Source of the DNA: a virus
Length of the DNA stretch: 57,321 bases
IMG/VR virus record: IMGVR_UViG_3300026097_000026
Span: 1-57,321 of that record
Direction: 5' to 3' (one strand)
Part shown: piece after piece, positions 4,498-55,000 of the stretch
How positions within the stretch are numbered: position 1 is the first letter of the stretch
Layout of the letters: every line of letters starts with the position of its first letter
Program-made: the position numbers and the translations under genes
The notes under the pieces: model-generated
What the model saw: only the letters and a program-made list of their open reading frames with translations
What the model was told of the DNA's origin: nothing
The model's database searches: none

Positions 4498-4502
4498 AAT
4501 AT

Positions 4503-6490: not shown

Positions 6491-6511
6491 CTTAAAAATT
6501 AAATAATAAAC

Positions 6512-7492: not shown

Positions 7493-7512
7493 TATTTAAA
7501 AACAAAAATTAC

Positions 7513-11268: not shown

Positions 11269-11269
11269 T

Positions 11270-11839
11270 ATGAGTGAAGTAAATATATTTGGTAAAGGTG
11301 GTCATGCAAAAGTTATAAAATCAATAATAGAACATAATATAGATGAGGAACTTGGTACTATTATGGATGATAAGGATTATTTAAAAATTGACACTGGCCA
11401 TTGGATAATAGGAATAGGCGATAATACAATTAGAAAGGAAAGAGCTTATGGTATATTAAAGAATGAATCTTTTTATACTTTAATTAGTAAATCTTGTATA
11501 CTACCAAAAGATAATAATATAGGTAAAGGTTCTGTCATATTTCATGGTGCGATTATACAAACAAATACTAAAATAGGAAATCATTGTATAATTAATACTA
11601 ATGCTAATGTAGATCACGACTGTGTTATTGGAGATTTTGTACATATTGCACCAGGTTGTACTTTATGTGGAAATGTTTCTATAGGTGAAGGGACTTTTAT
11701 AGGGGCTGGTACAACTATTATACCTGGAATTACTATAGGTAAGAATTGTATAATTGGTGCTGGTTCAACTGTAGTTAGAGACATTCCTGATAATACTAAA
11801 GCCTTTGGTAACCCTTGTACATTTAAAGAATTATTATGA
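11270..11839 (+). CDS. Left-handed beta-helix acetyltransferase (PglD/NeuD-like)
   Basis: The product has 189 residues. The N-terminal part (VNIFGKGGHAKVIKSII) is the Rossmann-like nucleotide-sugar domain of PglD/NeuD proteins; from about residue 80 the sequence becomes hexapeptide repeats ([I/V]-G-x-x-x-x), forming a left-handed beta helix that binds acetyl-CoA. The catalytic His of PglD corresponds to His116 in NVDHDCVIGD. Length and domain order fit PglD, which N-acetylates the 4-amino group of a UDP-amino sugar. The start is 1 base after the dehydratase stop, and its stop overlaps the aminotransferase ATG (ATGA), placing all three in one coupled operon. Confidence 0.9.
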   Translation: MSEVNIFGKGGHAKVIKSIIEHNIDEELGTIMDDKDYLKIDTGHWIIGIGDNTIRKERAYGILKNESFYTLISKSCILPKDNNIGKGSVIFHGAIIQTNTKIGNHCIINTNANVDHDCVIGDFVHIAPGCTLCGNVSIGEGTFIGAGTTIIPGITIGKNCIIGAGSTVVRDIPDNTKAFGNPCTFKELL

Positions 11840-12948
11840 AAAGGATATATTTATCACCTCCACATATGTCAGGCGATGAGCTTAATTATATCAAAGAAGC
11901 ATTTGATCAAAACTGGGTAGCTCCAATTGGACCACAACTTAATAAGTTTGAAGAGTTGGTTAAGACTTATGTAGGATCAAATCATGCAGTGGCAGTTAAT
12001 TCTGGTACAAGTGCAATTCATTTAGCTCTTAAAGTTTTAGGTATTAAAGAAAATGATACTGTTTTATGCTCTACTATGACATTCATAGGATCAGTTAATC
12101 CTATTTTATATGAAAGAGCAAATCCAGTTTTTATTGATTCAGAAAGTAATACATGGAACATGGATCCGTATTTATTAGAACAATCAATTATTGATTTAAT
12201 AAAGAAAAATAATAAACCAAAGGCGATACTTCTAGTTCATGTTTTTGGTATGCCTTCTAATTTAACTACTATTAAATCAATATCTGATTTTTATGGTATT
12301 CCCTTAATTGAGGATGCAGCTGAATCTCTAGGATCTACTTACAAAAATAAACATACCGGTACATGGGGTGATATTGGCATTTATTCATTTAATGGAAATA
12401 AGCTCTTATCTACATCAGGTGGTGGTATTTTAGTAACTGATAATAAAACTCTTGCAACTAAAGCAAGATTTTTATCAACACAAGCTAAAGAAGATAAGCC
12501 ATATTATTATCATAAAGAATTAGGTTATAATTATAGAATGAGTAATATTGTAGCATCAATAGGAATTGGTCAAATTAATGTAATTGAAGAAAGAATAAAA
12601 AGGACACGAGAAATTCATAAAATATATAAGAGTGAATTAGGAGACTGGTTTGATTGTATTTTAACTGAAGGTAATACTATTAGAAGTAACTATTGGCTTA
12701 CATGTGGCATTTCTAATGAGCGTTTTGAGCCAAATAAAATGATTAATCATTTAAATAATAAAAATATAGAAGCTAGGAGAGTGTGGTACCCGATGCATAG
12801 GCAGCCTATTTTATTTAACAGAACTAAATATATAAATGGAACTAGTGATAATCTATTTAAATGTGGTATATGTTTACCTTCAGGTTCTTCGATGTCAAAT
12901 GATGATTTAGGTAGAGTAATAGATTCTTTTAAAAAATATAAAAAATAA
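11836..12948 (+). CDS. PLP-dependent sugar aminotransferase (DegT/DnrJ/EryC1 family, PglE-like)
   Basis: The product has 370 residues. Family marks are clear: NSGTSAIHLAL (residues 55-65) for the PLP phosphate, EDAAESLGS (159-167) for the ring, and SFNGNKLLSTSGGG with Lys189 as the Schiff-base lysine. In the DegT family this lysine usually sits in S-F-[NFH]-x-x-K, as here. The enzyme would transfer an amino group from glutamate to the 4-keto sugar made by the upstream dehydratase. Together with the acetyltransferase this gives UDP-2,4-diacetamido-2,4,6-trideoxyhexose (bacillosamine or an epimer). The N-terminal IYLSPPHMSGDE start is typical of PglE-like members. Confidence 0.92.
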   Translation: MKRIYLSPPHMSGDELNYIKEAFDQNWVAPIGPQLNKFEELVKTYVGSNHAVAVNSGTSAIHLALKVLGIKENDTVLCSTMTFIGSVNPILYERANPVFIDSESNTWNMDPYLLEQSIIDLIKKNNKPKAILLVHVFGMPSNLTTIKSISDFYGIPLIEDAAESLGSTYKNKHTGTWGDIGIYSFNGNKLLSTSGGGILVTDNKTLATKARFLSTQAKEDKPYYYHKELGYNYRMSNIVASIGIGQINVIEERIKRTREIHKIYKSELGDWFDCILTEGNTIRSNYWLTCGISNERFEPNKMINHLNNKNIEARRVWYPMHRQPILFNRTKYINGTSDNLFKCGICLPSGSSMSNDDLGRVIDSFKKYKK

Positions 12949-12949
12949 T

Positions 12950-13846
12950 ATGATATTTTCATACGAAGACTTTCTATTAAATGAAAGCGTCAATGATTCC
13001 AACTTTAGCATCCTATTAGAAGCTAATCTTAATAATAAAATTAACAAAAATATTAAGTTTGGTATTGTAATTCCTACTCACAAAATATCAGATGGTGCTG
13101 CGCAAACTGGTCGTAAAAACTTTATGAATACTCCTGATTTACTTAAGGCTTCATTAGGTTCAATTAGAGACCAGAAATATGACAATTATGTAGTTTATTT
13201 AGTTGGCGATGCTTATGATGGTGATGAAGAAATTAAAACTGTTATTAGTGAAGTTATGCCTCAGGGCAAATGTAAATTTCATAATATGAAAACACCAGGA
13301 GAAAGAAATAAAGGATATACAAAACAACAATTTAGGTATACTGCAGGTGCTGGCGCAATGAACAAGGGTTTAGAACTAGCAAAAAATGATGGTATTGACT
13401 ATATAGTTAGATTAGACCATGATGATAAATGGAAACCTAATCACCTTGAATTATTAGCAAAAGCATATACACAGTATCCTGAATTAGCTTATGTTTTTAC
13501 TAGAAGCAGAAAAAAAGTTGATGCTAATAATTCCTCAAAAAAGTTTATGTATCAACCTAGTGAAGAAAGACATATGACAAAAATTGAACCTAATAATTTA
13601 GGTTATACTCATGGTGATGTAAGTCATTCAGCTATGTCATGGAGACCTTCAATGACAGGGGATTTAAGATACAGAAATCCTGATCAACAAAGTAAAACTA
13701 ATCCTAAAATACCTTTAACAAAAACTATACAAGCTGATGTTGATATGTTTAAGAGAATGATGGATTCAATTAAAAAAGCAGGTCATAAATATATGTATAT
13801 ACCTAAATTAACAAGCTTTTATAGAAACCGAAAGGGAAAGTTTTAA
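12950..13846 (+). CDS. GT2-like glycosyltransferase with a capsid-targeting-like N-terminus
   Basis: The product has 298 residues. The catalytic GT-A domain begins near residue 36 (KFGIVIPTHK) and has the metal motif RLDHDDKW with Asp156, Asp158 and Asp159. Before it lies a 35-residue extension beginning MIFSYEDFLLNES, which resembles the T4 capsid targeting sequence (MKTYQEFIAEA) and the N-termini of three head-region proteins in this window. The extension contains two candidate prohead-protease sites, L-N-E|S (residues 10-13) and L-L-E|A (22-25). The gene starts 1 base after the aminotransferase, so it probably uses the amino sugar made by the operon. Packaging into the head is my inference. 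Confidence 0.75.
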   Translation: MIFSYEDFLLNESVNDSNFSILLEANLNNKINKNIKFGIVIPTHKISDGAAQTGRKNFMNTPDLLKASLGSIRDQKYDNYVVYLVGDAYDGDEEIKTVISEVMPQGKCKFHNMKTPGERNKGYTKQQFRYTAGAGAMNKGLELAKNDGIDYIVRLDHDDKWKPNHLELLAKAYTQYPELAYVFTRSRKKVDANNSSKKFMYQPSEERHMTKIEPNNLGYTHGDVSHSAMSWRPSMTGDLRYRNPDQQSKTNPKIPLTKTIQADVDMFKRMMDSIKKAGHKYMYIPKLTSFYRNRKGKF

Positions 13847-13893
13847 ATTACTTATAAAAACAGAAATATATACATTAAATAAAAACATAAATC

Positions 13894-14070
13894 ATGGAAA
13901 CATTTAAAGAAATTAAATCATTAATAGAAAACACCGAGGAAGACATCGAAAAGTTTTATGTAAAGGGTAATAAGGCAGCTGCAGTAAGAATTCGTAAATC
14001 TATGCAAGAAATTAAAAACTTAGCTCAAAAACTTAGAGTACATGTACAAGAAACTAAAAATAATTTATAA
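13894..14070 (+). CDS. Bacteroidetes-type histone H1-like DNA-binding protein
   Basis: This short gene encodes 58 residues. The order METFKEIKSLIE, EKFYVKGNKAAAVRIRKSMQ and an ending KNLAQKLRVHVQETKNN matches the small histone H1-like proteins common in Bacteroidetes, whose hallmark is E-K-F/Y-x-K-G-N-K-A-A-x-x-R-x-R-K. Host homologues are nucleoid proteins; the phage copy could compact phage DNA, alter host chromatin or regulate transcription. It stands alone between two sugar operons, with its own A-rich leader (ATTAAATAAAAACATAAATC) and a strong terminator after it, so it is an independent cistron. It is the best single pointer to the host phylum. Confidence 0.85.
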   Translation: METFKEIKSLIENTEEDIEKFYVKGNKAAAVRIRKSMQEIKNLAQKLRVHVQETKNNL

Positions 14071-14118
14071 ACATTTTAATTAGTTCATCTCTCCCTATAA
14101 GGTATTCCCTTATAAACC

Positions 14119-14149
14119 AAAAGACCATTAATATTAATGGTCTTTTTTT
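14119..14149 (+). terminator. Intrinsic terminator after histone-like gene
   Basis: A perfect 28-base palindrome with arms beginning AAAAGACCATTAAT is followed by additional Ts, making a 12-14 bp stem with a T tract. Because it is palindromic with A-run on the other side it could act in both directions. Confidence 0.8.
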
Positions 14150-14212
14150 ATGCATAAATATTTTACTTAAACCATTTTCATTATTTATGTATAATATTTA
14201 AATAATATTAAA

Positions 14213-14764
14213 ATGGAAAAATGTTTAATCATTGATTTTGATGATACTTTAATTAAAACTATTGAAGTTCATGCAGAAGCATGGAGGAAATCATTAAATA
14301 AAACTTTAGATATTGACATACCAAAGGATGCTATTCTTAACGATATAAATTATGGTATTAATTTATTGCATGAAAAGTTTCAATTAACTAAAGATGAAAT
14401 TAAAAAATCCTCACAACTTAAAAAAGAATTTTTTAACCAAACTTTACATAATACTAAAGTTAATGAAGTTTTATTTTACTTAATAAAGAGTAAAATATTT
14501 GACCATGTAATAATTGCTTCAAATTCATCTAAAGAAAATTTAACTAGACTATTACATTATCATAATATAGATTTAAATTTATTTAGTTTAATATTAACAC
14601 GAGATGATGTAAAAAATAAAAAACCGTATCCTGATATGGGTAACATTATTTTTGATGAATTCTCTGACTATGATAGAAGTGATTTTATTATGATAGGTGA
14701 TTCTGATGTTGATAAAATATTTTCCACAAAAATAGATATAAGATGCATAATGGTAAACTTTTAA
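14213..14764 (+). CDS. HAD-superfamily phosphatase
   Basis: The product has 183 residues. All four HAD motifs are visible: motif I DFDDT (Asp8 nucleophile, Asp10 acid/base), motif II IASNSS (strand followed by Ser), motif III Lys in DVKNKKPYPD, and motif IV GDSDVD. A small alpha-helical cap fits between motifs I and II, as in phosphoglycolate phosphatase or beta-phosphoglucomutase relatives. The gene ends inside the start of the next gene (22-base overlap) and begins an operon with a kinase and a nucleotidyltransferase, so it probably dephosphorylates a sugar or polyol phosphate intermediate. It is preceded by its own AT-rich leader after the terminator. Exact substrate unknown. Confidence 0.85.
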   Translation: MEKCLIIDFDDTLIKTIEVHAEAWRKSLNKTLDIDIPKDAILNDINYGINLLHEKFQLTKDEIKKSSQLKKEFFNQTLHNTKVNEVLFYLIKSKIFDHVIIASNSSKENLTRLLHYHNIDLNLFSLILTRDDVKNKKPYPDMGNIIFDEFSDYDRSDFIMIGDSDVDKIFSTKIDIRCIMVNF

Positions 14765-15489
14765 TTGGAAACAGCGGTGATAAAGTATATGTTGATAAAA
14801 ACATAGTAATTAAAACTGCTGGTGTACATAAAGATAAATTTAAACAACAAGCTAACTTTTTATTAAATTGCGATCATCCTAATTTTATTAATATAAAGAA
14901 AATAAATGATGAGGAATATCACATGGATACTCATCCAACATTTTACAATTTTATATGTAATTCTGATTTAGGTGAATCGTTGTATAGATTAGAAGAATTA
15001 TTAGATATCATAGATGGTTTTAACTCGATTGGCGCCGATGTAAAAACAGAAACATATCTTAATAAATTAGAAAGCAGAACAGGATATAAGTACAGTGGTA
15101 AGTTTGATGCAGCATCTTCTTATGGTTTTGTACATGGGGATTTAACAATAAGTAATATCTTGTATGATGATCGCTTTATCTTTATTGACCCGAGAGGTAC
15201 TGAAGAACAAAACTATTATGATTATGGAAAACTTATGCAGTCGTTTGTTATGAACTATGAAGCCCATATATACAATGAATGGAATCCTAAATATTTAGAG
15301 TTTTGTAAAGAAGCTGAAAAAATAATGTATGAAAGATATGATGAATATCAACTTAAATTCTTTTTGGCTGTTCATTTATTGGGAGCAGTACCTTTTTTTG
15401 AATTAAACGAAAGGTATGAAATGGCTAAGTTATTTTTAGAAAAAGGTCATTCATTATTTAATGAATTAGGAATAAAATATAGTAAATGA
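14743..15489 (+). CDS. APH/choline-kinase-fold phosphotransferase
   Basis: The product has 248 residues. The kinase catalytic loop is plain: VHGDLTISNILYDD (H-G-D-x-x-x-x-N) followed by the metal-binding FIDPRGTEEQNYYDYGK. The N-lobe is reduced but keeps a KVYVDKNIVIKTAG strand with a plausible ATP-binding Lys. Such proteins phosphorylate small hydroxyl compounds (choline, sugars, aminoglycosides); several occur in capsule and LPS gene clusters. The gene overlaps the phosphatase upstream by 22 bases and the nucleotidyltransferase downstream by 4 (ATGA), so the three products are made together and presumably act in one pathway that activates a precursor. Confidence 0.8.
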   Translation: MHNGKLLIGNSGDKVYVDKNIVIKTAGVHKDKFKQQANFLLNCDHPNFINIKKINDEEYHMDTHPTFYNFICNSDLGESLYRLEELLDIIDGFNSIGADVKTETYLNKLESRTGYKYSGKFDAASSYGFVHGDLTISNILYDDRFIFIDPRGTEEQNYYDYGKLMQSFVMNYEAHIYNEWNPKYLEFCKEAEKIMYERYDEYQLKFFLAVHLLGAVPFFELNERYEMAKLFLEKGHSLFNELGIKYSK

Positions 15490-16196
15490 AAAATAAAGTA
15501 AAAAAAGCAATTATACTTGCTGCAGGTAAATCCAAAAGATATGGTTCAAATAAATTAACAGATCCTATTTTAGGAAAAACTACAGTACAATATGCTGTTG
15601 AATTTTGTATTGATAATGGTATAGATGATGTTTATATAACTATAAGTAAATCAGACTTCTTTTTTAAGAATTATAATACTAAATTGTCTCACCCAATTAT
15701 TGAAAGTTTATTATCATATAAAGATAAAATTAATATCTTTTATGAATTCCAAAAGGAAGATGAGTATGGTCCAGGCGCTGCTATTAAGGCATGGGAAGGT
15801 GCCTTTTATGAACCGTTTTTATGTTTATTTGGTGATAATTATTATGAAGGTAATATAGAGTTAGACAAACATAATCCTAATCAAACTATAATTACATATA
15901 AAGATTATGAAACTAGAGCTCGTAATTTACAATTGGCAACAATAATAGATGATGTTGTAGTTGAAAAACCCCATGGTGTAGTAAACGGTAGATATTTTTG
16001 TGGATATATGATATTTGCTAAAGAAGCATTTGATAATCTTAAAAATATTAAATTATCAGGTAGAAATGAATATGAAATTACACATCTCATAAACTCAATG
16101 AGCAATCCTCAATATAAAAAATTAAATATATGTTGGTACGATTTAACATATGAAGAAGATAAAAAAGTAATAGAAAGTATAATTAATAACAGTTAA
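15486..16196 (+). CDS. Sugar/alcohol-phosphate nucleotidyltransferase (GT-A-like NTP transferase)
   Basis: The product has 236 residues. The nucleotide-binding signature L-A-A-G-x-x-x-R is present as LAAGKSKRYGSNK (residues 11-23), and an Asp in CLFGDNYYEG matches the metal-binding Asp of this superfamily. YGPGAAIKAWEG is also typical of sugar-nucleotide pyrophosphorylases. It condenses an NTP with a phosphorylated substrate, probably the one produced by the upstream kinase and phosphatase. Similar triplets activate heptose or choline-like groups in bacterial surface polysaccharide loci; which one applies here cannot be told. The stop is followed after 1 base by the next gene. Confidence 0.8.
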   Translation: MKNKVKKAIILAAGKSKRYGSNKLTDPILGKTTVQYAVEFCIDNGIDDVYITISKSDFFFKNYNTKLSHPIIESLLSYKDKINIFYEFQKEDEYGPGAAIKAWEGAFYEPFLCLFGDNYYEGNIELDKHNPNQTIITYKDYETRARNLQLATIIDDVVVEKPHGVVNGRYFCGYMIFAKEAFDNLKNIKLSGRNEYEITHLINSMSNPQYKKLNICWYDLTYEEDKKVIESIINNS

Positions 16197-16197
16197 T

Positions 16198-17448
16198 ATG
16201 AAAGAAGTAAAACGCGTTGGGTTTTTCAAATTAGGAAAGGCTATAAAATTTAATGAAAAGAGCTGGAATGCTATTGGTGGTGATTGTGAACCTAAGCAGT
16301 TAATAACATCTATAGCAAAAAGAAATCCTAAAGTAGAATATTGGCTTCTTAGTCCAAATGATTTAGGTAAATTTAGAGCAAAGGAGACTCCAGTTAAAAG
16401 CCCTTTATTTGGTCCTTCTCCTGAAACAAGTTCTGTACCATCAAACATTAAAGAATTTCATTCACAAATGAAAGATCGCAAATCTATTGATGAAACTACT
16501 GATAAAATAAAATCATTAAACCTTGATTTTATTTTCTTTTATACTGGTCCTACTAGTACAGTTAATATTCCTAATTACATAAATAAAAAGGACGGTACCG
16601 GTATGGTTAAATCATTAGACTTTTTTAAATACTATGCAGCTCCTATTATTAAATCATTAAATGAAATTGAAAAAAGAATTCCTATAGTAGGTTTACTGGT
16701 TGATAATAGATTTACTATAAGCGCTAAAGATTTTCATGCTCATAATAGACCAACTTATTACCTAGCACAAAATAATTTTGAAAAAGAAGAACAATATTTT
16801 TCTAATCCTCCTAATAGAGATACTCTAACAATCAAATCTAAATTTGAATATTCAGGTATTGAAACTGTCTTTTTATTAGATAAGAAAAGATATGATATTG
16901 ATGAATTATTTGAAAAGAAAACAGAGTATTCTTTTGTAATGCTACAAAACCAAGGAAAGGGTTCGGGTGGTGGTATGGATAGATGGGATCCTGTTAGAGA
17001 TTATATTGTTGAAAATGACATAAAAACAGATATTTATGGAAAGTGGGATACTGAAATTAAAGAAAAATATCCTGAATGGTTTAAAGGTGAGCGTAGGATT
17101 GAATCTATGTCTGATGAATTAGTTAAAACTAAATATACTTTTTGTGTACCTATTAAAGAAGGGATGGTTACTTCAAAATATGCAGAAATGCTTCATTATG
17201 GAATTATACCATTTTTACATCCATCATACGACACTGAATACAATGTATTCCCTGAAGGTCATTTTATCAGATGTAAAAGCCCAGAAGATCTTAAAAAGAA
17301 AATTGAGTTTTTAGAAAGTAACCCTGATCACTATAAAAAATTATTTTATAATTTACAAAGTAAGTATATCAAGGATGAATACTATACTGGTGAACATGTA
17401 GATAATAAAATCTGGGATGCGTATAATAAAATAACAAATAACAACTAA
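16198..17448 (+). CDS. Putative GT-B-fold glycosyltransferase
   Basis: The product has 416 residues. It lacks GT-A Asp motifs. The C-terminal third has the features of a GT-B donor domain: strand SFVMLQNQ with a Gly-rich turn, DIYGKW, a KYTFCVPIKEG strand, then KYAEMLHYGIIPFLHP, in which an acidic residue and the small-residue turn before I-P recall the E-x-x-x-x-G-x-I-P element of GT-B enzymes, including T4 alpha-glucosyltransferase. The N-terminal half (VGFFKLG, FIFFYTGPTS) would be the acceptor domain. Because the operon also contains a DNA cytosine methyltransferase, a DNA-sugar role is conceivable, but a glycan role is equally likely. No close family recognised. Confidence 0.55.
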   Translation: MKEVKRVGFFKLGKAIKFNEKSWNAIGGDCEPKQLITSIAKRNPKVEYWLLSPNDLGKFRAKETPVKSPLFGPSPETSSVPSNIKEFHSQMKDRKSIDETTDKIKSLNLDFIFFYTGPTSTVNIPNYINKKDGTGMVKSLDFFKYYAAPIIKSLNEIEKRIPIVGLLVDNRFTISAKDFHAHNRPTYYLAQNNFEKEEQYFSNPPNRDTLTIKSKFEYSGIETVFLLDKKRYDIDELFEKKTEYSFVMLQNQGKGSGGGMDRWDPVRDYIVENDIKTDIYGKWDTEIKEKYPEWFKGERRIESMSDELVKTKYTFCVPIKEGMVTSKYAEMLHYGIIPFLHPSYDTEYNVFPEGHFIRCKSPEDLKKKIEFLESNPDHYKKLFYNLQSKYIKDEYYTGEHVDNKIWDAYNKITNNN

Positions 17449-17458
17449 ATTAATAAAA

Positions 17459-18481
17459 ATGTATAACAAAAATACAAAAATTTTAATAACCGGCGGTGCT
17501 GGTTTTATTGGTACTAACTTAATTAATGATTTACTTAAAAAAGGTCATAATCCTGACAGTATAGCAGTAATTGACAACCTATCACATGGTACTTTTTTAG
17601 ATGAAGTACATGGTAAATTAAAATATTTTTATAATGAAGATATCAGAAACCAATATGTAGAAAAAATTATATCAGATTTTAAACCTGAGTACATATTTCA
17701 TTTTGCTGGGTTAGTATCAATTTATGACTGTAATAGCAACCCATATGAAGCTGTTGATATTAACGTTTTAGGTAGTATTAACATTCTTAATGCAGCAGTT
17801 GAAAATAATGTTAATAGGGTCATTTTTAGTGAAACTTCAGCAGTTTACGAAAATTGTGAAATGGGATCTAATGGATATAATGAAAATCAATCTGATCCTA
17901 CCACCATATATTCAACTACGAAAGCATCATTGGCATTATTAGCAGAGTCATATGCTAGAACAAAAGGTTTAAAATATACTGCGCTAAGATATTTTAATGT
18001 AGCTGGACCTTTACAAGATTATGAAAGAACGGTACCTCCTGTGTTTGCTGGTTTTATTTTAAGAATTATGGGAGGGCATAAACCAATCATCTTTGGCGAT
18101 CCTATGAAGTCACGTGATTATATTGATGTTGATGATGTTAATGATTTTCATATTTTATGTATGAAAGATCAAAGAACAGAGAATCGTACATTTAATTTAG
18201 GTACTGGTAAAGATACAAACCTTTTAGAATTAAAGGATATTATAGGTGAATGCATGAATGTTAGTAATGTTCAGTATAATTCATATGATGCAATTGCAGG
18301 TGAGGCTGTAAATATTAAAGCTGATATATCAGCAGCCACTGAATTAGGATGGGTACCTAAGAACGATATTAAAGATACTATTAATAAAACAATAGATTAT
18401 CTTAAAAAAGAAGTAAAGGTAGGTAATATTAATCCTAAAACCTTTATGGAAAATATAGAAATAAAAAAGGTAAAAATATGA
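17459..18481 (+). CDS. NAD-dependent sugar epimerase/dehydratase (GalE-like)
   Basis: The product has 340 residues, the usual size of UDP-glucose 4-epimerase. Motifs: TGGAGFIG (residues 11-18) for NAD, FHFAGLVS (80-87), SETSAVY with Ser127, and Tyr151-x-x-x-Lys155 (YSTTK). A conserved RYFNVAGP segment and SRDYIDVDDV follow, as in GalE and related extended SDRs. The probable reaction is C4 epimerisation of a UDP-hexose or hexosamine, which would supply a donor for the flanking glycosyltransferases. Its stop overlaps the methyltransferase ATG (ATGA). Related epimerases acting on other NDP-sugars cannot be excluded. Confidence 0.85.
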   Translation: MYNKNTKILITGGAGFIGTNLINDLLKKGHNPDSIAVIDNLSHGTFLDEVHGKLKYFYNEDIRNQYVEKIISDFKPEYIFHFAGLVSIYDCNSNPYEAVDINVLGSINILNAAVENNVNRVIFSETSAVYENCEMGSNGYNENQSDPTTIYSTTKASLALLAESYARTKGLKYTALRYFNVAGPLQDYERTVPPVFAGFILRIMGGHKPIIFGDPMKSRDYIDVDDVNDFHILCMKDQRTENRTFNLGTGKDTNLLELKDIIGECMNVSNVQYNSYDAIAGEAVNIKADISAATELGWVPKNDIKDTINKTIDYLKKEVKVGNINPKTFMENIEIKKVKI

Positions 18482-21634: not shown

Positions 21635-22777
21635 ATGACTGATAAGGAAAAGCAATTAAAAATTCAAGAAATAGAGGAAACTAAATACCAAGCTTCCCTT
21701 TTTATGAATAAAGAACAAGCTGTAAAATTAATGTTAAATAGTATTTACGGTGCATTTGGTAATCCTTATTTTTATTTCTTTAATGTAGATATTGCTGAAA
21801 CAATTACATTACAAGGTAAAGATGCAATATTATATACTGAAAAACTTCTTAATAAGTATTTCACTGAATTCTGGCATAAAGATTTAGATTTACATAAGAA
21901 GCTAGGAATAACCGTAACAGGTAGAATTGAAAATCCTGTGGGTATTTACATTGATACTGATTCCGTCTATGTTAAGTTTGAAGAAGTAATTAAAAAATCT
22001 GAAGGTTGGTCTGGTGATGAAAAGCAATTTATATTAAAGTTGTATGAATTAAGATTAAGAGATTATATTGAAAAAATCATGCAAAAATATGCTGATGATA
22101 ATAATGCTGAAAACTTCTTAAGCTTTGAATTAGAAAGTATTGCAAAAAATGCAATTTGGTTAGCCAAGAAAAAATATATGCAAAATATAGTTTGGAAGGA
22201 TCCTGACATTCACTATGATGATTTATCAAAAATTAGTGCAAAAGGATTTGAAATTATTCAATCATCAACCCCACTATTTGCAAGAGAAAAACTTAAAGAT
22301 TTATTAACATACATTTTTTCTGTTGAAAAATTAGATATGAAAGAGTTTTCTGCTCTTCTTAAAAAAATCAAAAGAGAATTTAGGTTAGCTAATGTTGATC
22401 AAATAAGTTTTTCAAAAAAGGTAAATAATTATCAAAAATATATTGTTAGTGATTATGATGCTTTTGAAATTGCATCTAGGTGCCCTATTGGTGTTAGGTC
22501 AGCGGGCTATCATAATTACCTTTTAAATAATTCAGGGCTCAAGGGTAAATATCAACCGCTAGGTAACGGTGAAAAACTTAAAATGTATTTTTCTGAGGAT
22601 ACTACTTGTGATGTATTTGCATATAGCCCTGGTGATCATCCTTACGAATTTGCACCTTCTGTTGATTATGATAGGCAGTTTGAAAAAACTATTTTGGATC
22701 CTATTAATAGAGTAATTGTTGCAATGGGATTTAAAGGCTTTAATCGTAATCTTATTTATACAACAAGTCTTTTTTAA
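21635..22777 (+). CDS. 43B: DNA polymerase family B, C-terminal half (gp43B): motifs B and C, thumb
   Basis: The product has 380 residues. It starts with a charged helix (MTDKEKQLKIQEIEE) and reaches motif B at KLMLNSIYGAFGN (residues 31-43) and motif C at YIDTDSVYV (105-113; Asp107 and Asp109 bind metal). The rest is the palm and thumb, ending in KTILDPINRVIVAMGF and a short Ser-Leu-Phe tail that resembles a clamp-binding peptide at the polymerase C-terminus. It complements 43A, which stops between motifs A and B. The gene has its own leader element and lies behind a terminator, so it is expressed separately from 43A. There is no intein sequence at its N-terminus. Confidence 0.95.
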   Translation: MTDKEKQLKIQEIEETKYQASLFMNKEQAVKLMLNSIYGAFGNPYFYFFNVDIAETITLQGKDAILYTEKLLNKYFTEFWHKDLDLHKKLGITVTGRIENPVGIYIDTDSVYVKFEEVIKKSEGWSGDEKQFILKLYELRLRDYIEKIMQKYADDNNAENFLSFELESIAKNAIWLAKKKYMQNIVWKDPDIHYDDLSKISAKGFEIIQSSTPLFAREKLKDLLTYIFSVEKLDMKEFSALLKKIKREFRLANVDQISFSKKVNNYQKYIVSDYDAFEIASRCPIGVRSAGYHNYLLNNSGLKGKYQPLGNGEKLKMYFSEDTTCDVFAYSPGDHPYEFAPSVDYDRQFEKTILDPINRVIVAMGFKGFNRNLIYTTSLF

Positions 22778-40192: not shown

Positions 40193-40684
40193 ATGTACAA
40201 GGTTAGAAAAATCAATTTTGGGTGGTACAGAAGGCGGCATGGTATTCTTTTAGAAAACTTGCCGCCTTTAAAGAAAAAGTTACTCATAGATCATGATCAT
40301 ATGAAATGGTTAAATTCCGATGTTCAGGCATTTGAGGTTATTTTTAAAGTTGAAGATCACAACGACCATGAAAGAAAAACTCGTAAGGTTTTTTGGAATC
40401 CTTTTAGAGAAACTTTTACAAAAATTAAACAAATAGAAAAAGATTCAAATCTAGTAGATTGGAACTGTGCAATATGTAAAGAACCAATTAAGTCAAGAAT
40501 GAGCTTTAAAAAGATTGAAAACTTTGTTTGTAATAAATGTAGAGAATCTCATAATTCAAAAAATAAACAAATTGACCAAAGAATTATAGATTCTACTAAT
40601 AAGTTTATGAAACATTGTAAAGGTCTATTAAGAAGGGAGCAACGTGAATTTATAAATTATGCAAAAAAATCATCAAAGAGATAA
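40193..40684 (+). CDS. Zinc-finger protein, function unknown
   Basis: The product has 163 residues. A C-x-x-C ... C-x-x-C pair (Cys92, Cys95, Cys113, Cys116; CAIC and CNKC) forms a treble-clef-like zinc site. The N-terminal part has RKINFGWYRRRHG and HDHMKWL, rich in aromatic and basic residues; the C-terminus is basic and helical (GLLRREQREFINYAKKSSKR). DNA or RNA binding is plausible. The gene starts on the base after the previous stop. Its 3' end overlaps the 3' end of the only minus-strand gene by 12 bases, so the two genes converge without a visible terminator between them. Confidence 0.6.
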   Translation: MYKVRKINFGWYRRRHGILLENLPPLKKKLLIDHDHMKWLNSDVQAFEVIFKVEDHNDHERKTRKVFWNPFRETFTKIKQIEKDSNLVDWNCAICKEPIKSRMSFKKIENFVCNKCRESHNSKNKQIDQRIIDSTNKFMKHCKGLLRREQREFINYAKKSSKR

Positions 40685-41458
40685 ACATTTTTCTAATGAT
40701 ATTTTAGTAAAACATGTAAGAGTACTTCTTTCTGATGCATTATATACTTTAATACCTTTCTTTTTTAATTCTTCTGCAATATGTGGAAATGAAACAACAA
40801 ACCTTTTTTCATAAATATGTTTGCTAGTAGGATTAACTGGGTATCCATCATGAAAATGTGTTTTATTTCCATTTCCTCCCATATCAAAACCTAACAAGAC
40901 TATTCTAGTTGCTCCTAGGTGGTATGCTAAATTTATTGCTGCATATCCACTATTATCACCATGTGCTAATGATCTATTATCAGTTTCCAAACCGTGTCTA
41001 ATACCTTTTTTTAATAGTCTTACGTCATTAGTATAAGGTGCACCTGAATTAATTGTATATTTTACTGCATTTGATGCATCAATATCTTTTTTATACCATC
41101 TATAAAACCTAGCATCAGTCCAATATATTACTTGTGCAGTTGGTATTGACATAAATGACTTATTGATTGCTATTACTGATTTATTGGATAATGAATTCCA
41201 ATTAAAACCTTGTAATGATGGACCTCCACCTATTACATATACAGTTTTTCCTTTAAATATTGGAATAACAGAAGAGTATGTTAAGTTAGATGGGTTTCTA
41301 CGAGGCCTATTCCTCTTTAAATTATTAGGTGATATAACTGTTGGTGTTTTAGTAGTTTTTCTTTTAGCCTTCTCTAAACTTCTTATTCCTCGTCTCCTTA
41401 CTCTTGATTTTGGAATCTTTTTAGGATTAGTCATTATTTTTTTTATTGTGTTTGCCAT
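40673..41458 (-). CDS. DUF115/MptE-like Rossmann protein (only minus-strand gene)
   Basis: The product has 261 residues. After a ~55-residue very basic, Pro-containing N-terminal tail (KSRVRRRGIRSLEKAKRK) it has KTVYVIGGGPSLQGFNW, SVIAINKSFMSIP and QVIYWTDARFYRWY, then TRIVLLGFDMGG. This G-G-G-P-S-L Rossmann-like pattern is shared by DUF115/MptE-like proteins and by a group of phage proteins of unclear role, often near sugar-modification genes. It is transcribed opposite to everything else, diverging from gp44 (64-base intergenic region) and converging on the zinc-finger gene, which suggests acquisition and independent control. The basic tail may bind nucleic acid. Confidence 0.7.
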   Translation of the reverse strand: MANTIKKIMTNPKKIPKSRVRRRGIRSLEKAKRKTTKTPTVISPNNLKRNRPRRNPSNLTYSSVIPIFKGKTVYVIGGGPSLQGFNWNSLSNKSVIAINKSFMSIPTAQVIYWTDARFYRWYKKDIDASNAVKYTINSGAPYTNDVRLLKKGIRHGLETDNRSLAHGDNSGYAAINLAYHLGATRIVLLGFDMGGNGNKTHFHDGYPVNPTSKHIYEKRFVVSFPHIAEELKKKGIKVYNASERSTLTCFTKISLEKCLSL

Positions 41459-47596: not shown

Positions 47597-48208
47597 ATGA
47601 AAGAAGAATCTAAAGAAGAATTAAGATCATCACTTGACGACTTAATTGGGTATGACTTACCTAATGAAGTTGAAGGGTTAAATGAGACTCATGAATTAGA
47701 TAAAGTAAAGGCAGAAACAACGCAATTTGTAGGTATTCAAAAAGCAAAAAAGAAAGCCACAAAAGTAATGGGAAGTCTTCTTAAATTTTATTTAAGTGAA
47801 GAAATTATTGAAGAGCATGAGTATATAAAGGCTAAACAAAAAATAGATACCACGGCCTTAAGTATGTTAATTAGGCAAATGGAAAATAGTGAACATGCAA
47901 TTACTATATTAATGGACACTATAAATGAAGGGGATGTTGCACCTAGGATGTTTGAAGTTTTAAGTGACTTACAAAGAACATTGTTAGATATTATTAAAAG
48001 TCAAACTATGTATATGGTGGCAGTTGAAGAAAATGCTAAAAAAATGTCTAGAGACTTGGATGTTTATCAAAATCAGTCATCAAGCTCTAATAAGTCTAAA
48101 GGTAATGGTGCAAAGTCTAGAGGAACCAAAGATTTAATGAAAGCTTTACAAAGTAGTATAAAAAATGAAAACATACAAGATGTTGATTCAAGTGAAGATG
48201 TTGAATAA
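47597..48208 (+). CDS. 16: Terminase small subunit (gp16-like)
   Basis: The product has 203 residues (T4 gp16: 164). The middle has a long coiled coil (TTALSMLIRQMENSEHAITILMDTINEGDVAPRMFEVLSDLQRTLLDIIKSQTMYM). The G-x-x-x-P-R-x-F-E-V-x-x-x-L segment is what I recognise from gp16-like small terminases. The C-terminus is Ser/Lys/Asn-rich and acidic at the end. It would form a ring that regulates TerL and recognises DNA. The gene is just upstream of the terminase large-subunit genes, with a GroES-like gene between them. Confidence 0.7.
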   Translation: MKEESKEELRSSLDDLIGYDLPNEVEGLNETHELDKVKAETTQFVGIQKAKKKATKVMGSLLKFYLSEEIIEEHEYIKAKQKIDTTALSMLIRQMENSEHAITILMDTINEGDVAPRMFEVLSDLQRTLLDIIKSQTMYMVAVEENAKKMSRDLDVYQNQSSSSNKSKGNGAKSRGTKDLMKALQSSIKNENIQDVDSSEDVE

Positions 48209-48452
48209 TTATATTCTTGTTAAAGATTTTAAACAAGAAGAAAAGGTTACTAAAGGTGGTATCATTATACCAAAAAGCGAAAAATGGAATCGCATGGCAA
48301 CTGTTTTGGCTTGCGGAGAATGTGACCAAGTAAAAAAAGGAGACGTTATAATGAAAAATTTAGGAAAAGGAACACCGATGATTCTTAATGATGTTGAAAT
48401 GGAAATGATTCATATAAATAATATTATGTGTATTGTTGAAAGTAATGAATAA
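48198..48452 (+). CDS. GroES-like co-chaperonin (functional analogue of T4 gp31)
   Basis: The preferred start is the ATG at 48198, giving 84 residues beginning MLNNYILVKDF. An upstream in-frame ATG at 48165 adds 11 residues that do not fit the family. GroES landmarks follow: V-K at 8-9, a mobile-loop region KQEEKVTKGGIIIPKSEK with the G-G-I/L-I/V-I-P motif, RMATVLACGE, VKKGDVIM and a final MCIVESNE strand pair. It presumably replaces or alters host GroES so that GroEL can fold a phage protein such as gp23, as T4 gp31 does. The start overlaps the gp16 end by 11 bases. Confidence 0.85.
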   Translation: MLNNYILVKDFKQEEKVTKGGIIIPKSEKWNRMATVLACGECDQVKKGDVIMKNLGKGTPMILNDVEMEMIHINNIMCIVESNE

Positions 48453-48455
48453 TAA

Positions 48456-49022
48456 ATGCAAAAACCACAAGCAAATAGTGCAGGATTTGAGCTAACAATT
48501 AAAAAAGGAGCTGAATCTTTTTCATGGTCTTCTAAAAAAGTAGAGCAGTTAATGGCTGCAATAGAAGATGGGTATAAACCAAAATCTACTCCGTTTTATG
48601 AAGGTAATACAAATTTACGAAAAGGAAATATAGTTTTTGAGTATACTGACCATGAATTAAGAGAAATACAAAAATGTGCAAGGGATATAGTTTACTTTGC
48701 AAATAATTATTGTACTGTTATGACTGATGAGGGGTTGCAGACAATAACCCTTAGGCCTTATCAAGAGGATATGTTAAGACAGTTTCAAGATGAGAGATTT
48801 AATATTTGTCTAGCTAGTAGGCAGGTTGGAAAATGTCTTACATTTTCCACCGAGATTATAGTTTTAAAGAACGGTAAAGGAATTAAAACTACAATAGGAA
48901 ATTTATATTTTGAAACACTTAAACTACAAAGACCACTTACTTTAATTGAAAAAATTAAATGGTCTTTATGGAAAGCTTATACTTGGTTAGATTCATTTGA
49001 CAGAAAGCAAGAAGAGTCTTAA
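48456..49022 (+). CDS. 17: Terminase large subunit N-terminal part fused to N-intein
   Basis: The product has 188 residues. Residues 1-126 are the N-terminus of a gp17-type TerL; the ATPase Walker A begins at LASRQVGK (119-126) and stops at the catalytic Lys. Cys127 then starts an intein N-fragment (CLTFSTEIIVLKNGKGIK), with the block A pattern C-L-x-x-x-T. About 30 further residues (KLQRPLTLIEKIKWSLWKAYTWLDSFDRK) are amphipathic and could dock with the C-fragment. The frame then ends with TAA. Without splicing this polypeptide has no Walker B and no nuclease and cannot package DNA. The C-half is encoded at 50115-51992. Confidence 0.95.
   Translation: MQKPQANSAGFELTIKKGAESFSWSSKKVEQLMAAIEDGYKPKSTPFYEGNTNLRKGNIVFEYTDHELREIQKCARDIVYFANNYCTVMTDEGLQTITLRPYQEDMLRQFQDERFNICLASRQVGKCLTFSTEIIVLKNGKGIKTTIGNLYFETLKLQRPLTLIEKIKWSLWKAYTWLDSFDRKQEES
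48834..49019 (+). other. N-intein (62 residues, split from C-intein by a homing endonuclease gene)
   Basis: Runs from Cys127 to the stop. Only intein block A lies here; block B is found in the C-fragment, so this is an atypically early split. It starts exactly after the Walker A lysine. Confidence 0.9.
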
Positions 49023-49045
49023 ATATATAATAAAATAAAGATTAT

Positions 49046-50122
49046 ATGGAAAAGATTTGTAAACAGTGCCAAGAAAAATATCAAGCTAAAAATAATAGAT
49101 CAACTTATTGTAGTACTAAATGTAAAAATAATGCATCTTTTATTAGAAACCAAGAAAAACTTAAACAAGGTATCGAAGGTGATGACTATGTAATTGATAA
49201 GTGGAATGGTTATGCAACACCAAGAATTTACGGAGCATGGATGAGATCTATGCACCCAGGTAAAACTACACAAGATTATCTTAATGAATTTCCAGGTGCT
49301 CAACTTGCATGTAAAAAAGATAAACAAGCCACTTCTAAAAATTCAGGTATTCATATGAAGGATCCTAAATACAGAAAAATGGCTAGTAATGCAATTAAAG
49401 GCAAAAGAAATCCTAATCATAAATCAAAAACTACATTACAAGAAAGACAAAAAAGAAGTCCATTTTCAGAAAATTTTAAAAACCATAAAAACTTAAATGA
49501 TCGTGATACTTTTTTAGAATCTATCGATTGGTCAAAAAGAATAACAAGTACACAATTGGAATGGTGGTTAAACAAAGGTTATTCTAAAGAAGATGCTAGA
49601 GAAAAATTAAAAGAAAGACAAACTACCTTTACATTAGAAAAATGTATACAAAAATGGGGTAAAGAAAAAGGTATTCAAAAATTTAAGGAAAGACAAGAAA
49701 GGTGGAAAAAATCTTTATACGAAACTTTTGAAAGGGAAGGTGATGGTCGTAGCCCTAGTAGTAAGTTTGCAAATTCAATTATAAAAGAACTTTGTGAATA
49801 TTTAAAAATAGAAATACCACAAAAAGAAAAATGGATTAAAAATAAGGAAACACAAAAAGCATATTCATATGATTTTACATATAATAAAAAGATCATAGAA
49901 TTTAATGGCGACTATTGGCATTGTAACCCTAAACTATATGAGGCAGATTATTTTAACAAAAATAAAAGTTTAACTGCTACTGAGATTTGGGAATATGATA
50001 AAGAAAAAGTTAAAACTGCTGAAATGTATGGATATCAAGTCTTAATTGTTTGGGAGCATGATTGGTTAAATAATCATGAAAGAGTCTTAGACAATTGTAA
50101 AAAATTTATAGATAATGATTAA
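49046..50122 (+). CDS. EDxHD/Vsr-like homing endonuclease between terminase halves
   Basis: The product has 358 residues. It begins with a zinc site (Cys5-x-x-Cys8 ... Cys22-x-x-x-Cys26, CKQCQEKY and YCSTKC), then basic DNA-binding regions (SPFSENFKNHKN), and ends with a Vsr-like nuclease: Asp276 in YSYDFTYN, Glu285 in KIIEFNGDYWH (His292), TATEIWEYDKEK, YGYQVLIVWEHDW. The E-x-N-G-x-x-W-H and W-E-x-D pattern is that of the EDxHD homing endonucleases found between halves of fractured, split-intein genes in marine phage DNA. It lies 23 bases after the N-half and overlaps the C-half by 8. It is expected to cut intein-less terminase genes and spread the insertion. Confidence 0.88.
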   Translation: MEKICKQCQEKYQAKNNRSTYCSTKCKNNASFIRNQEKLKQGIEGDDYVIDKWNGYATPRIYGAWMRSMHPGKTTQDYLNEFPGAQLACKKDKQATSKNSGIHMKDPKYRKMASNAIKGKRNPNHKSKTTLQERQKRSPFSENFKNHKNLNDRDTFLESIDWSKRITSTQLEWWLNKGYSKEDAREKLKERQTTFTLEKCIQKWGKEKGIQKFKERQERWKKSLYETFEREGDGRSPSSKFANSIIKELCEYLKIEIPQKEKWIKNKETQKAYSYDFTYNKKIIEFNGDYWHCNPKLYEADYFNKNKSLTATEIWEYDKEKVKTAEMYGYQVLIVWEHDWLNNHERVLDNCKKFIDND

Positions 50123-50552
50123 TTTACTAAAAGGTATAATTCTGATACTCATTGGATTTATAGAAACTATTGAATATCGTTCAGTTGATTTAGATCAAAA
50201 TGATATTAATAAAAAGATTATGAATACAATTAATATTTATGATGTTAGAATTGATACTGATACCGGTTGGGAAAGAATTACACATGTTCATAAAACACAA
50301 CCTTATGATATTTGGAAAGTTAAGCTTAATAATGGCATGTATCTTGAAGGGGCTGATAATCATATCTTATTTACTGAAAAATTAAATGAAGTATTTATAC
50401 GAGATTTAATTGTTGGTGATTATATTATGACCCGAGAAGGGCCTGTTGAAGTTACACAATTAATTAAATATAAGCAAAGTGTTTCTATGTTTGATGTAAC
50501 TGTGGATAACCCTAATCATAGATACTGGAGCAATGATATACTTTCACATAAC
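50115..50552 (+). other. C-intein (146 residues) with blocks B, F and G
   Basis: Ends with Asn146 before extein Thr147. Hydrophobic N-terminal stretch (MINLLKGIILILIGFIE) may pair with the amphipathic tail of the N-intein rather than form a membrane segment. Confidence 0.9.
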
Positions 50553-51992
50553 ACGATAGGATCTTCTATTTTTATTGCATGGTATTCTCTTTTTAATTTT
50601 GATAAAAATTCTTTAATACTGTCAAATAAAGGTAGTACAACATCTGAAATTATTGATAAGGGTAAAACAATATTAGAACATTTACCTTTCTTTTTAAAGC
50701 CTGGTATTTTAAAATGGGATGTATTTAACACTAAATTTGATAATGGTTGTAGGATCATTGGACAAACCACAACAAAGAAAGCTGCAATTGGTTTTACTAT
50801 TCACCTATTGTTTATGGATGAGTTTGCCCATATACCAAATAATTTTGTTAACACTTTTTACGAAAACGTATATCCTACTGTTTCTGCTTCTAAAAACTCA
50901 AAAGTAATTATAACCAGTACACCAAATGGTTTTAATAAATTTTATGATATCTATTCTGCTGCTGAAGCAGGTAGGAGTGAATATGTACCTTTTAAAATTG
51001 ATTGGTGGGATGTGCCTGGACGAGATGAAGAGTGGATGAAAAATGAAGTTGCTAATTTAGGTGATGAAGAAGCATTTAATAGACAATATGGTAATCAGTT
51101 TATAGCAAGTTCTTCTCTATTATTAAGTGCTGATAGTTTAAAGAAGTTAGCAATAAACCAAAAGGAATTTATTTTTTATGACATACCAGAATTAGAAGAC
51201 ATTGGTTTAGATTATAGTGGTTTAAAATGGGATCCTAATTTTGATGTTGAAAATGATCCTGCTGATGACTCAAACTATTGGGTATTTTCAGTTGATTTAG
51301 CAGAAGGAAATGGTGGGGATTATTCTATCATTAATATGTTTAAAATTGAGGTAATGGATTCATCTGATTTTAAAAAAATAATTACACCAGGTGCTTTTGT
51401 TGACTTTTTTAGAATAAGACAAATAGGTGTTTTTAGAAGTAATCAGCACACTATTGAGGATTTTGCAAAAATACTCTATACAATAGGATTTGATATGTTT
51501 TATTCTGAAAATTTAAAACTTATTATAGAATGGAATATGTTTGGATCTGAATTAATAAAAAGATTAGAAACTGTATTTCCTAGAAGAAATAATTTTGATG
51601 AAGAAACTATTGTTAAATTTAAGCATCGTGTTGATGCAAGATCTAAAGATTTTGGCTTAAAGGTAAAGAAAGATAATAAACCTATATTTTGCCAAAATTT
51701 TAAAAAATATGTATCACAAAATAAAATAATACTAAACGAAAAGAAAACTGTTAAAGAAGCAGGTACATTTGGAAAATTACCAAATGGATCATATGCAGGG
51801 CAGTTAGGTCATGATGATCTTATTATGACAAGTATAAATTCATCTGAATTTTTTACCACTACCGACTTTTCTGAATTTGTTGAAGAATTATATGATTTAA
51901 TTGATCCGGATATACAATTTAAAATTGATGAAATTCTTGAAAGGGATTCAAAGGGTGGGGATCTCAATTATGATATATACGATTTGGTATAA
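50115..51992 (+). CDS. 17: C-intein fused to terminase large subunit C-terminal part
   Basis: The product has 625 residues. Residues 1-146 are the intein C-fragment: block B at GADNHILF (79-86), strands through GDYIMTREGPVEV, block F VSMFDVTVDNPNHRYW (123-138), and block G ending ILSHN with His145-Asn146. Thr147 is the +1 residue. Extein then continues TIGSSIFIAWYSLFNF, so splicing gives ...RQVGKTIGSS..., a complete Walker A. Walker B is LLFMDEFAHI, coupling motif TSTPNG, nuclease motif I VFSVDLAEGNGGDYS, and a late DLIMTS. The 479 residues plus 126 from the N-half make about 605 (T4 gp17: 610). The start overlaps the endonuclease gene. Confidence 0.95.
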   Translation: MINLLKGIILILIGFIETIEYRSVDLDQNDINKKIMNTINIYDVRIDTDTGWERITHVHKTQPYDIWKVKLNNGMYLEGADNHILFTEKLNEVFIRDLIVGDYIMTREGPVEVTQLIKYKQSVSMFDVTVDNPNHRYWSNDILSHNTIGSSIFIAWYSLFNFDKNSLILSNKGSTTSEIIDKGKTILEHLPFFLKPGILKWDVFNTKFDNGCRIIGQTTTKKAAIGFTIHLLFMDEFAHIPNNFVNTFYENVYPTVSASKNSKVIITSTPNGFNKFYDIYSAAEAGRSEYVPFKIDWWDVPGRDEEWMKNEVANLGDEEAFNRQYGNQFIASSSLLLSADSLKKLAINQKEFIFYDIPELEDIGLDYSGLKWDPNFDVENDPADDSNYWVFSVDLAEGNGGDYSIINMFKIEVMDSSDFKKIITPGAFVDFFRIRQIGVFRSNQHTIEDFAKILYTIGFDMFYSENLKLIIEWNMFGSELIKRLETVFPRRNNFDEETIVKFKHRVDARSKDFGLKVKKDNKPIFCQNFKKYVSQNKIILNEKKTVKEAGTFGKLPNGSYAGQLGHDDLIMTSINSSEFFTTTDFSEFVEELYDLIDPDIQFKIDEILERDSKGGDLNYDIYDLV

Positions 51993-52043
51993 ATTATCTT
52001 AATGTGGTAGATATATAAAAAAACTAAAAAAATATAATATAAG

Positions 52044-55000
52044 ATGGCACTAGATCCACAAATAGCTTCAATAAAAGCATCAGGGACATACAGGTTTGAA
52101 TTCGATAAGAGCCAAGTAGTAGGAGTTCCAGCGAATCAAACGAGATTAGTTGTCGGTTTTTCTAAAAAAGGACCTTTTAATACACCTGTTTTTATTCCAG
52201 ATTCTTCATTCTTTAAACAAATATTTGGAGAAATTGATAGAAACTTAGAAAAAAAGGATTCTTACTTTCATAGGAGTTGTTTATCAGCTTTAGAAAGAGG
52301 TCCAATATTGGCACTTAATCTTCTATCTCTTGATTCAGATGATAAGAGCCAGTATATGAAAATGGCAACTGCAGCTACACCTGATGCACAATCTAATATA
52401 GCTTCAATTGCTGAATATTCTAAATTTTATAATCAAGACAAGTTTTGGTTTCCAGACTCTGAAGCATTTTTAAATAACGTTACACCAGCAGTTAATAGAG
52501 ATTCAATTAACTCTACAACTACTAATGACCTTTTAGATTTTACTAATTTAGGTAAAAATCCAATATCTGTTATTGTTAAAAAGGCTGCGCCACAAAATGT
52601 AGGAGGATTTAATGTTACTGTTGATGAATGGTACGGTTCTGCAAATGTACCAGGCTTTTTAAATAAAGATAGTTTGGTATCTGACTTTATGGTTGATGTT
52701 TTTGTAATTGAAGGAAACTTTGGTGGTGATTTTACACAATCTCAACCTTATGATAGATTTTCAGCAGATCCAATATTTCAAGATTATTTTGATCCGACAA
52801 AAGGTTTACAGAGAAGAAAATTTTCATCAGATGAAACTGATACACAATTAGCAGAATTTTTTAATTTAGGAGAGGTTAATTTAATTGCTTCTTATACTGC
52901 ATCTCTTTTACCTGACTTTGTTGATTTAGTTGGTAATAATTTATTTATTGAAAAAGTAATAAATGCAGACTCTGCAACTACAGGGTTATTCTGTGCAGTT
53001 AATGAAGATTTATTTAGCGGTGACTTTTTAATTGATGGTGTTGCTGGTGGTATTGATTTAGTTGGTCATAATATTGAGTATACACAATCAACATCATTCC
53101 AAGGAGATGTTAATTTCTTATCATATCATGAAACTATAGTTTCTGATATTGAGGAATGTAGAAATACAGCAACTGTTAATACCCAAACATTAAGCGGAGC
53201 TGATTCAATTTCAGTTACTACACTGTCAAACGGTAACATTCAAATACAAGTACAAGATATTACTGGTAGCACTCTTTATGATGTATTAGCTGATATGACA
53301 TCTAATACTGCTACGACAGTAGGTACTTATTTATATGATACTGTAAATAATGTATATGTTCCAGTTATTAATGTTAATGTAACACCTACTGTTGCTACTA
53401 TTACATTATCTGGAGTTGGTACTTCTGCTAGCAGTTTTCCAACAGCACCAGGTACAGTACTTTCATATATTAATGAATCTGACTTTAGTATTATAGCACA
53501 AGAATGGAACGGTACTGCACCAACATCAAATATTATAGGATCTTATGGTAGTGATCTTTATACTAATTTTACTAATGGTATTCTTACTGATGGTGATGAG
53601 GCAGTATATGAAGTAGGTGGTCAACAATATACATCATATTTAGTATTTAATGAAATTGCATATAATTATATTCATATAGCATCACCTACAGGATCTGCTA
53701 ATGCAATTGCAATATCAGATTCAAATTATAATTTACCTTCGGTTAAAATTACACCGTACGAAGAAGACTCATTTACAAACGTAACACCAATTACCCAATT
53801 TAATATCGATGGTGCTGGTTTATTTCTTAATACTTTAGGTAACACTGTATCTGCAAATTGTTTAAACATACAAACACTGAAAGGTTCTTTAAATACAACT
53901 ATAGATATTATATCAGATTATACAACTGATACTAAACTTAAACCTAACCAAGTTCTTATTAATTCTAATTCACCAGAAGCTGCAGATTTAGATGTAGGTA
54001 ATTATATGGTACATGATGAAGGTGGTTCTACTGGACATTCAAGATTAACAAGAATTAATCAAACTTCTGGTGGTTTAACATCGGCACAATATTCTTCAAT
54101 ACCAGGAGGACAAACCGCTATCTTAGTTACATGCCAATCAGAAATTTCAGTTGACACTGTGAATAATATTAAAAAGGTAGAATTATATTATCCTATTGAT
54201 CGTTGGGTTGATTACTTAAATGTATTTACATTTGATGGTTTTAAATTAGATGCAACAAAACATGTACCTGATGGATCAAATGATCGTCAAAATGAAATAT
54301 TAAATGGTACACTTAATGGTACTAATTTATTTAAAGCTCTTACTGATAGAGAAGTAATTAATTTTAGATATGTAGTTGATACATTTGGAAATGGAATTGA
54401 AAGTGGATCTAAATCATTATTTACAAATTTATGTCAAACTAGAAAAAACGCATTTGCAATATTAAATGCTCCTTCTGCAAAAGACTTTAAAAATAATACA
54501 GACCCTTCATTTACTGATTCAACTGGTGCATTATCAACTAAGTTTATATCAGAAGGTGGAGATTTAAGTAGAAACCCATCAGTTAGATATTCATTGCCTT
54601 CACCTACACAAGGTGCAAGTTGGGGATCATTTTATTTTCCTAATATTACAGTAAGAGATTTAGGTAAAAATATAAATGTACCACCTGCTGCTTATGTTTC
54701 AAATAACTTTATTGCAAAATATGCAAATGCGCTACCGTGGTCATTAGTTGCAGGTGTTCGTAGAGGTGTCGTTGGTGGAACTGGTGTTGTTGGGTTAGAA
54801 ATTAATCTAGATAAAGAAGATCGTGAATTTTTAGAACCGTTTGGTTTAAACCCAATTGTGTTTCAAACTGGAACTGGTCCTACAATTTTTGCTAATAAAA
54901 CTGCACAGCAAACAACAAGATCTGCATTAAGTTCAATTAATGTTAGAGAGGTTGTAATTTATATCCAAGATGGTATCGAAGCAATTTTAAGAAACTATTT

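Follow-up and report, generated by a model that had tools for sequence, protein, structure and literature searches.

In IMG/VR virus record IMGVR_UViG_3300026097_000026, a split intein interrupts the gene for the large terminase subunit (TerL) inside its P-loop. The break separates the Walker-A Lys codon from the Thr codon, and an endonuclease gene lies between the intein halves. The record was analysed over its whole 57,321 nucleotides (hereafter the window). Positions 48834–50552 are best read as a homing cassette in the TerL of a large T4-like phage, in which a class-1 split intein would join the TerL halves by trans-splicing and the endonuclease would drive homing (rough probability 0.9).

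Locus architecture and the empty site

Three open reading frames (ORFs) make up the locus: 48456–49022 (188 aa), 49046–50122 (358 aa) and 50115–51992 (625 aa), with the ATG of the third overlapping the stop of the second by 8 nt (ATGATTAA). A preliminary description of this DNA had read them as TerL residues 1–126, ending in RQVGK and followed by a Cys-initial N-terminal intein half (IntN), then an endonuclease, then a C-terminal intein half (IntC) ending in His-Asn before Thr. That layout holds to the base, with the Thr codon at 50553. The joined TerL of about 605 residues with an intact GKT, also proposed there, agrees with the exteins: 126 + 479 = 605 aa, 69.7 kDa, with a joint reading ...SRQVGK-TIGSS.... 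Against the TerL profile PHROG 5989, the ORF1 match ends at position 172 and the ORF3 match takes over at position 172, which leaves no TerL residue unaccounted for. A second contig (L002), 98–99% identical to the window, begins inside the endonuclease and has the same arrangement. As in fractured genes, two gene parts each carry an intein half, an endonuclease lies between them, and intact orthologues exist.

Alignment to the TerL of intein-free relatives, suggested as a check in the same description, shows the empty site. The exteins are contiguous, without a gap, exactly at K126|T (GK|T, the bar marking the insertion point) in 78 IMG/VR contigs whose TerL is 76–81% identical to that of the window. 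The interval 48834–50552 is therefore an in-frame insert between the Walker-A Lys and Thr codons, and the 78 contiguous relatives together with the second contig exclude chance.

Intein identity and proposed splicing

Residues needed for class-1 splicing are complete in the window: C1, block-B H83, D127, H135, HN and T+1. In alignments of eight homologous loci per intein half, Cys1, the block-B His, the block-F Asp and His, and the terminal His-Asn are conserved. The C-terminal junction is HN^T or HN^S in 62 of the 66 non-redundant intein-bearing TerLs. The dN/dS ratio (non-synonymous to synonymous substitution rates) is below 0.4 for both halves in all estimable pairs, synonymous sites being near saturation in the distant ones; by this measure both halves are shown to be under purifying selection.

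Pfam and NCBIfam alone barely detect the intein or the endonuclease, and profiles built in the analysis were needed. A family profile headed by an unsplit homologue and filled out with the IntC sequences of split loci matches solved inteins in the PDB: VidaL (1.8e-10), gp41-1 (1.3e-9), CatC (2.3e-9) and also NrdJ-1. One unsplit homologue, L181 (194 aa), was modelled with AlphaFold at a predicted local distance difference test score (pLDDT) of 89, and the top Foldseek matches of the model are inteins (4e-10). Rows from phage-collection loci were left out of the input for structure prediction. These matches and this fold support the split intein of the preliminary description, and the sequence features strongly support interpretation as class-1 trans-splicing.

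Three proteins would be made: TerL(1–126)-IntN, the endonuclease and IntC-TerL(127–605). IntN and IntC would find each other, probably aided by pairing of the amphipathic helices at the IntN end and the IntC start, and fold into a Hint domain. As the conserved residues suggest, the class-1 route would then follow, with a Cys1 thioester, transfer to Thr+1 and Asn cyclisation, and the product would be a TerL of 605 aa whose P-loop GKT is whole. In a co-infected cell, the Vsr/EDxHD-type endonuclease would cut the P-loop codons of another phage's intein-free TerL gene, and the whole cassette would be copied in during repair; the DNA footprint expected of such copying is present in relatives.

Mobility of the cassette

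Pairs of relatives display this footprint. Flanks of the occupied locus L088 and the empty locus L137 are 91–93% identical, and the two differ by a clean 3.3-kb insert at GK|T. L228 and L240 share a cassette that is 99.1% identical within flanks of 74.7–76.7% identity, with abrupt edges at the intein ends; L226 shows the same contrast more weakly. The L228/L240 contrast is, on the face of the alignments, an indirect signature of homing. Chimeric assembly may also produce such a pattern, but its breakpoints would have to fall exactly at the intein ends.

Occupied and empty states change at least 13 times on a tree of 106 TerL C-exteins, at least 10 of these changes being forced by well supported branches. 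The window TerL groups there with two empty TerLs and one carrying a cis-intein. A search of the set for a recent donor of the window cassette gave none: in each pair that includes the window, identity is higher in the flanks than in the cassette. Judged from the loci compared, the intein family is widespread among large T4-like phages and never departs from the GK|T/S site.

Split position and paired helices

The break does not fall at the canonical site of gp41-1, NrdJ-1 and IMPDH-1, the inteins that the preliminary description cited for comparison. The window intein is split near its N-terminal end, ahead of block B (GADNH lies in IntC), an atypical, "S2"-like position. Two segments flanking the break, the IntN tail LTLIEKIKWSLWKAYTWLD and the IntC leader MINLLKGIILILIGFIETIEY, are conserved across split TerL loci, in a survey of the 80 best hits that may favour full-length matches. 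The cis-inteins of Magnus, Kuja and VAP7, which occupy the identical site, lack them, as does CatC, whose match begins at IntC residue 30–34 with the leader helix outside.

L181 and L222 are unsplit inteins that have both segments in one chain. In the L181 model these are predicted as helices 37–49 and 54–68, with a four-residue turn between them at the position where the split forms are broken. Hydrophobic moments of the single helices are modestly above those of shuffles (p 0.01–0.19), so amphipathicity is supported mainly by conservation. The conserved amphipathic helices are possible docking helices.

The endonuclease

D276, E285, G288 and H292 do not vary among the 25 endonuclease homologues compared. 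The best Foldseek match of the endonuclease model is I-Bth0305I, the EDxHD homing endonuclease (3R3P; probability 0.99, E 0.06), followed by Vsr. This fold order and the invariant D/E/H residues uphold the earlier EDxHD/Vsr-like assignment, at a weak E-value. A PDB search with the single sequence gave no match; alignment and fold were needed.

An endonuclease in an SbcC-like gene of contig L082 is 74% identical to that of the window over residues 166–357 only, a pattern that points to modular exchange of the nuclease and the N-terminal region. The N-terminal region presumably sets the target. In Caulobacter phage Cr30 (L086:3492–4514), a relative of the endonuclease is free-standing beside an uninterrupted TerL, possibly a collaborative-homing state.

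Table 1. Features of the fractured TerL locus in the window
Feature	Position	Strand	Evidence
TerL N-extein, residues 1–126	48456..48833	+	ends SRQVGK, with the Walker-A Lys; contiguous with the C-extein in 78 relatives
IntN, 62 aa and stop codon	48834..49022	+	Cys1, block A; GK^C in 44/45 non-redundant loci with readable IntN
IntN tail helix LTLIEKIKWSLWKAYTWLD, proposed docking helix	48936..48992	+	kept in 8/8 aligned split loci; AlphaFold helix 37–49 in unsplit homologue
EDxHD/Vsr-like putative homing endonuclease, 358 aa	49046..50122	+	Cys-rich N-terminal region; invariant D276, E285, G288, H292
IntC, 146 aa	50115..50552	+	blocks B, F, G; terminal SHN
IntC leader helix MINLLKGIILILIGFIETIEY, proposed docking helix	50115..50177	+	AlphaFold helix 54–68 in unsplit homologue
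TerL C-extein, 479 aa	50553..51992	+	from the Walker-A Thr (+1 residue); Walker B and nuclease domain
Mobile cassette IntN–endonuclease–IntC, 1719 bp	48834..50552	+	absent from 78 relatives; same edges in L088/L137 and L228/L240

Possible dependence on splicing and alternative readings

Neither TerL half has a whole P-loop. There is no second TerL within the 57-kb window and no other TerL in the 131–217-kb relative contigs searched. The only other TerL-like genes in larger relatives (131–735 kb) are truncated, with the P-loop Lys replaced by Ile (RQMGI), in LR756500 and LR756501. DNA packaging may depend on trans-splicing, as the preliminary description proposed. The short paralogues are 270 aa (L084, LR756500.1 ~193330–194150) and 390 aa (L261, LR756501.1 ~699850–701030) long and lack the nuclease domain; a regulatory subunit or a decoy is a possible role.

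Several points weigh against the reading as a trans-spliced homing cassette. The window is a 57-kb fragment, and an intact TerL elsewhere in the genome is conceivable. The intein end deviates in single relatives (SSQ, HQ, NLN), so not every family member need splice well. The match of the endonuclease to a known EDxHD enzyme has a weak E-value (0.06–0.09). The docking proposal is drawn from conservation and from the model of one unsplit homologue, a single chain, and the unsplit hairpin forms L181 and L222 could be ancestral or re-fused.

The best-surviving alternative, itself very improbable, is that the halves work as two separate polypeptides, the ATPase N-lobe and the rest, which assemble unspliced like split DNA polymerases, with the intein as a relic. 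The PolB of the window phage is also encoded in two genes, without intein remnants, and the non-canonical intein ends of some relatives favour unspliced halves. But the break separates two P-loop residues, Lys and Thr, both of which bind nucleotide phosphates and Mg, and a relic is at odds with the purifying selection on both intein halves and with the retention of Cys1, the block-B His and His-Asn in nearly all members.

A shade less probable still is a broken locus, an allele that makes no TerL, so that an intact copy elsewhere in the genome or helper phages would be needed. The limited span of the window and the second TerL-like genes of two huge relatives leave room for it; on the other side, all three ORFs are intact and recur in L002, those second genes have lost the P-loop Lys and the nuclease domain, and the contigs searched hold no other TerL. 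Least probable of all is joining at the RNA level, with the interval a self-splicing intron that holds an endonuclease gene, as in phage ICP1, where the TerL RNA is spliced and a homing endonuclease gene lies alongside (PMC10448857): Rfam intron models give no match in 48300–52100 even at E<=1, conserved intein sequence stands at both interval ends in frame with the exteins, cis-inteins occupy the identical TerL site, and 12.4 kb with opposite-strand genes separates the halves in LR756501.

What occupies the break in relatives

The content of the break varies widely. A full EDxHD-type endonuclease is present in the window, L087, the L158–L165 set, LR756500 and many more; it is reduced or broken in L174, L176, L182 and L202, and only its last 32 residues are left in L198/L199. 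No endonuclease is found in L089 (where stop and start overlap as TAATG), L207, L221, L241 and L253. Other contents are a GIY-YIG-like endonuclease (L157), a larger homing endonuclease of PHROG 3339 (L186), the endonuclease plus two other ORFs (L088) and, in the 735-kb phage LR756501, 12.4 kb with a methyltransferase and genes on both strands. L175 and L178 are ~87% identical around the locus and differ in the presence of the endonuclease. Given this pair and the breaks with a decayed or absent endonuclease, the split outlives the nuclease.

Further observations concern single relatives. The two ORFs after the endonuclease in L088 (1906–3503) are paralogous, and one has a weak PARP-like match. 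The TerL C-half of L163 (7304–10651) is itself interrupted by another intein-like insertion, a contiguous one (DD|C...VVHN|C); trans-splicing as well as cis-splicing would be required to make this TerL. In L087 a homing endonuclease of PHROG 314 lies directly downstream of the fractured TerL (7889–8629). L172 and L173, from huge phages, were considered as further fractured cases and rejected, their TerLs being uninterrupted.

Other P-loop ATPase targets

TerL is not the only gene broken in this way. One contig, L082, carries a DnaB-like helicase gene and an SbcC-like ATPase gene (2–2561 and 4157–7502), both fractured at their P-loops at GK|S, and these breaks carry related endonucleases. In the window the DnaB-like helicase and SbcC-like genes are intact with uninterrupted P-loops, and represent empty sites of the L082 insertions. 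The fractured L082 genes are without the helix pair, so the helices are not required by every split intein of the group.

A broader proposal, to which we give somewhat better than even odds, is that GK|T/S homing cassettes form a family specialised in phage ATPases (TerL, DnaB-like, SbcC-like). In its TerL branch, a hairpin would have been cut at its turn and its arms would have become docking helices, so that the halves could persist without an endonuclease, even far apart. This would be a stepwise route to a stably split essential gene.

Neighbouring genes

A GroES-like co-chaperonin gene (48165–48452) lies immediately upstream of TerL and overlaps the preceding ORF; L087 has it too. The two PolB genes are at 5009–6412 and 21635–22777, 15.2 kb apart (profile positions 16–137 and 141–388), with no intein sequence at the break. 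The record also holds sugar-nucleotide and glycosyltransferase genes and a sialyltransferase-like gene, at 10192–18481 and 40673–41458.

Relation to known systems and significance

Precedents exist for fractured genes, for EDxHD endonucleases and for split TerL inteins. Fractured genes with split inteins and EDxHD endonucleases were reportedly described by Dassa and colleagues in 2009. Those cases, as cited in later papers, share with the window an essential gene broken by a split intein and a free-standing Vsr/EDxHD-type endonuclease between the halves. The window differs from them in its gene (TerL), its P-loop break, the near-N-terminal split of the intein and the extra helices, and in having relatives with empty, cis, endonuclease-less and widely separated forms.

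The closest TerL systems are also distinct. In AceL-TerL, GOS-TerL and the consensus Cat, IntN has 25–37 aa and IntC 104–115 aa (25/104 and 37/115; PMC11766414), and AceL-TerL and GOS-TerL are split after the first helix, at the S2 position (PMC13014065). The window intein is likewise naturally split after its first helix (S2), and its IntC matches CatC from residue ~30–34. Unlike them, it has an IntN of 62 and an IntC of 146 aa; the paired helices, absent from AceL-TerL and Cat, account for the difference in length. Its chemistry is Cys1/Thr+1 rather than Cys+1, and the insertion site therefore probably differs as well. The cis-inteins in the TerL of Ackermannviridae (Klebsiella phage Magnus, Vibrio phages Kuja and VAP7) share the GK|T site and a homologous Hint sequence, but are contiguous, ~160–180 aa long and without an endonuclease, a short linker replacing the helix pair. 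AceL NrdHF is also a phage fractured gene with an endonuclease between the halves, in that case GIY-YIG, but it is of class 3, split at the canonical site and in a different gene (PMC7891396). No description of the P-loop family, the paired split helices or kb-separated halves was found in the open-access papers searched.

The packaging motor of these phages apparently forms when two gene products are welded together post-translationally at the catalytic site. Present-day relatives show each stage of the homing cycle: empty, unsplit, fractured with nuclease, nuclease decaying, nuclease gone, and halves 12 kb apart. Because the family displays all these stages, the origin and fate of split inteins become directly testable. 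The paired helices may be an association module that evolved naturally, and they are a candidate design element for split inteins.

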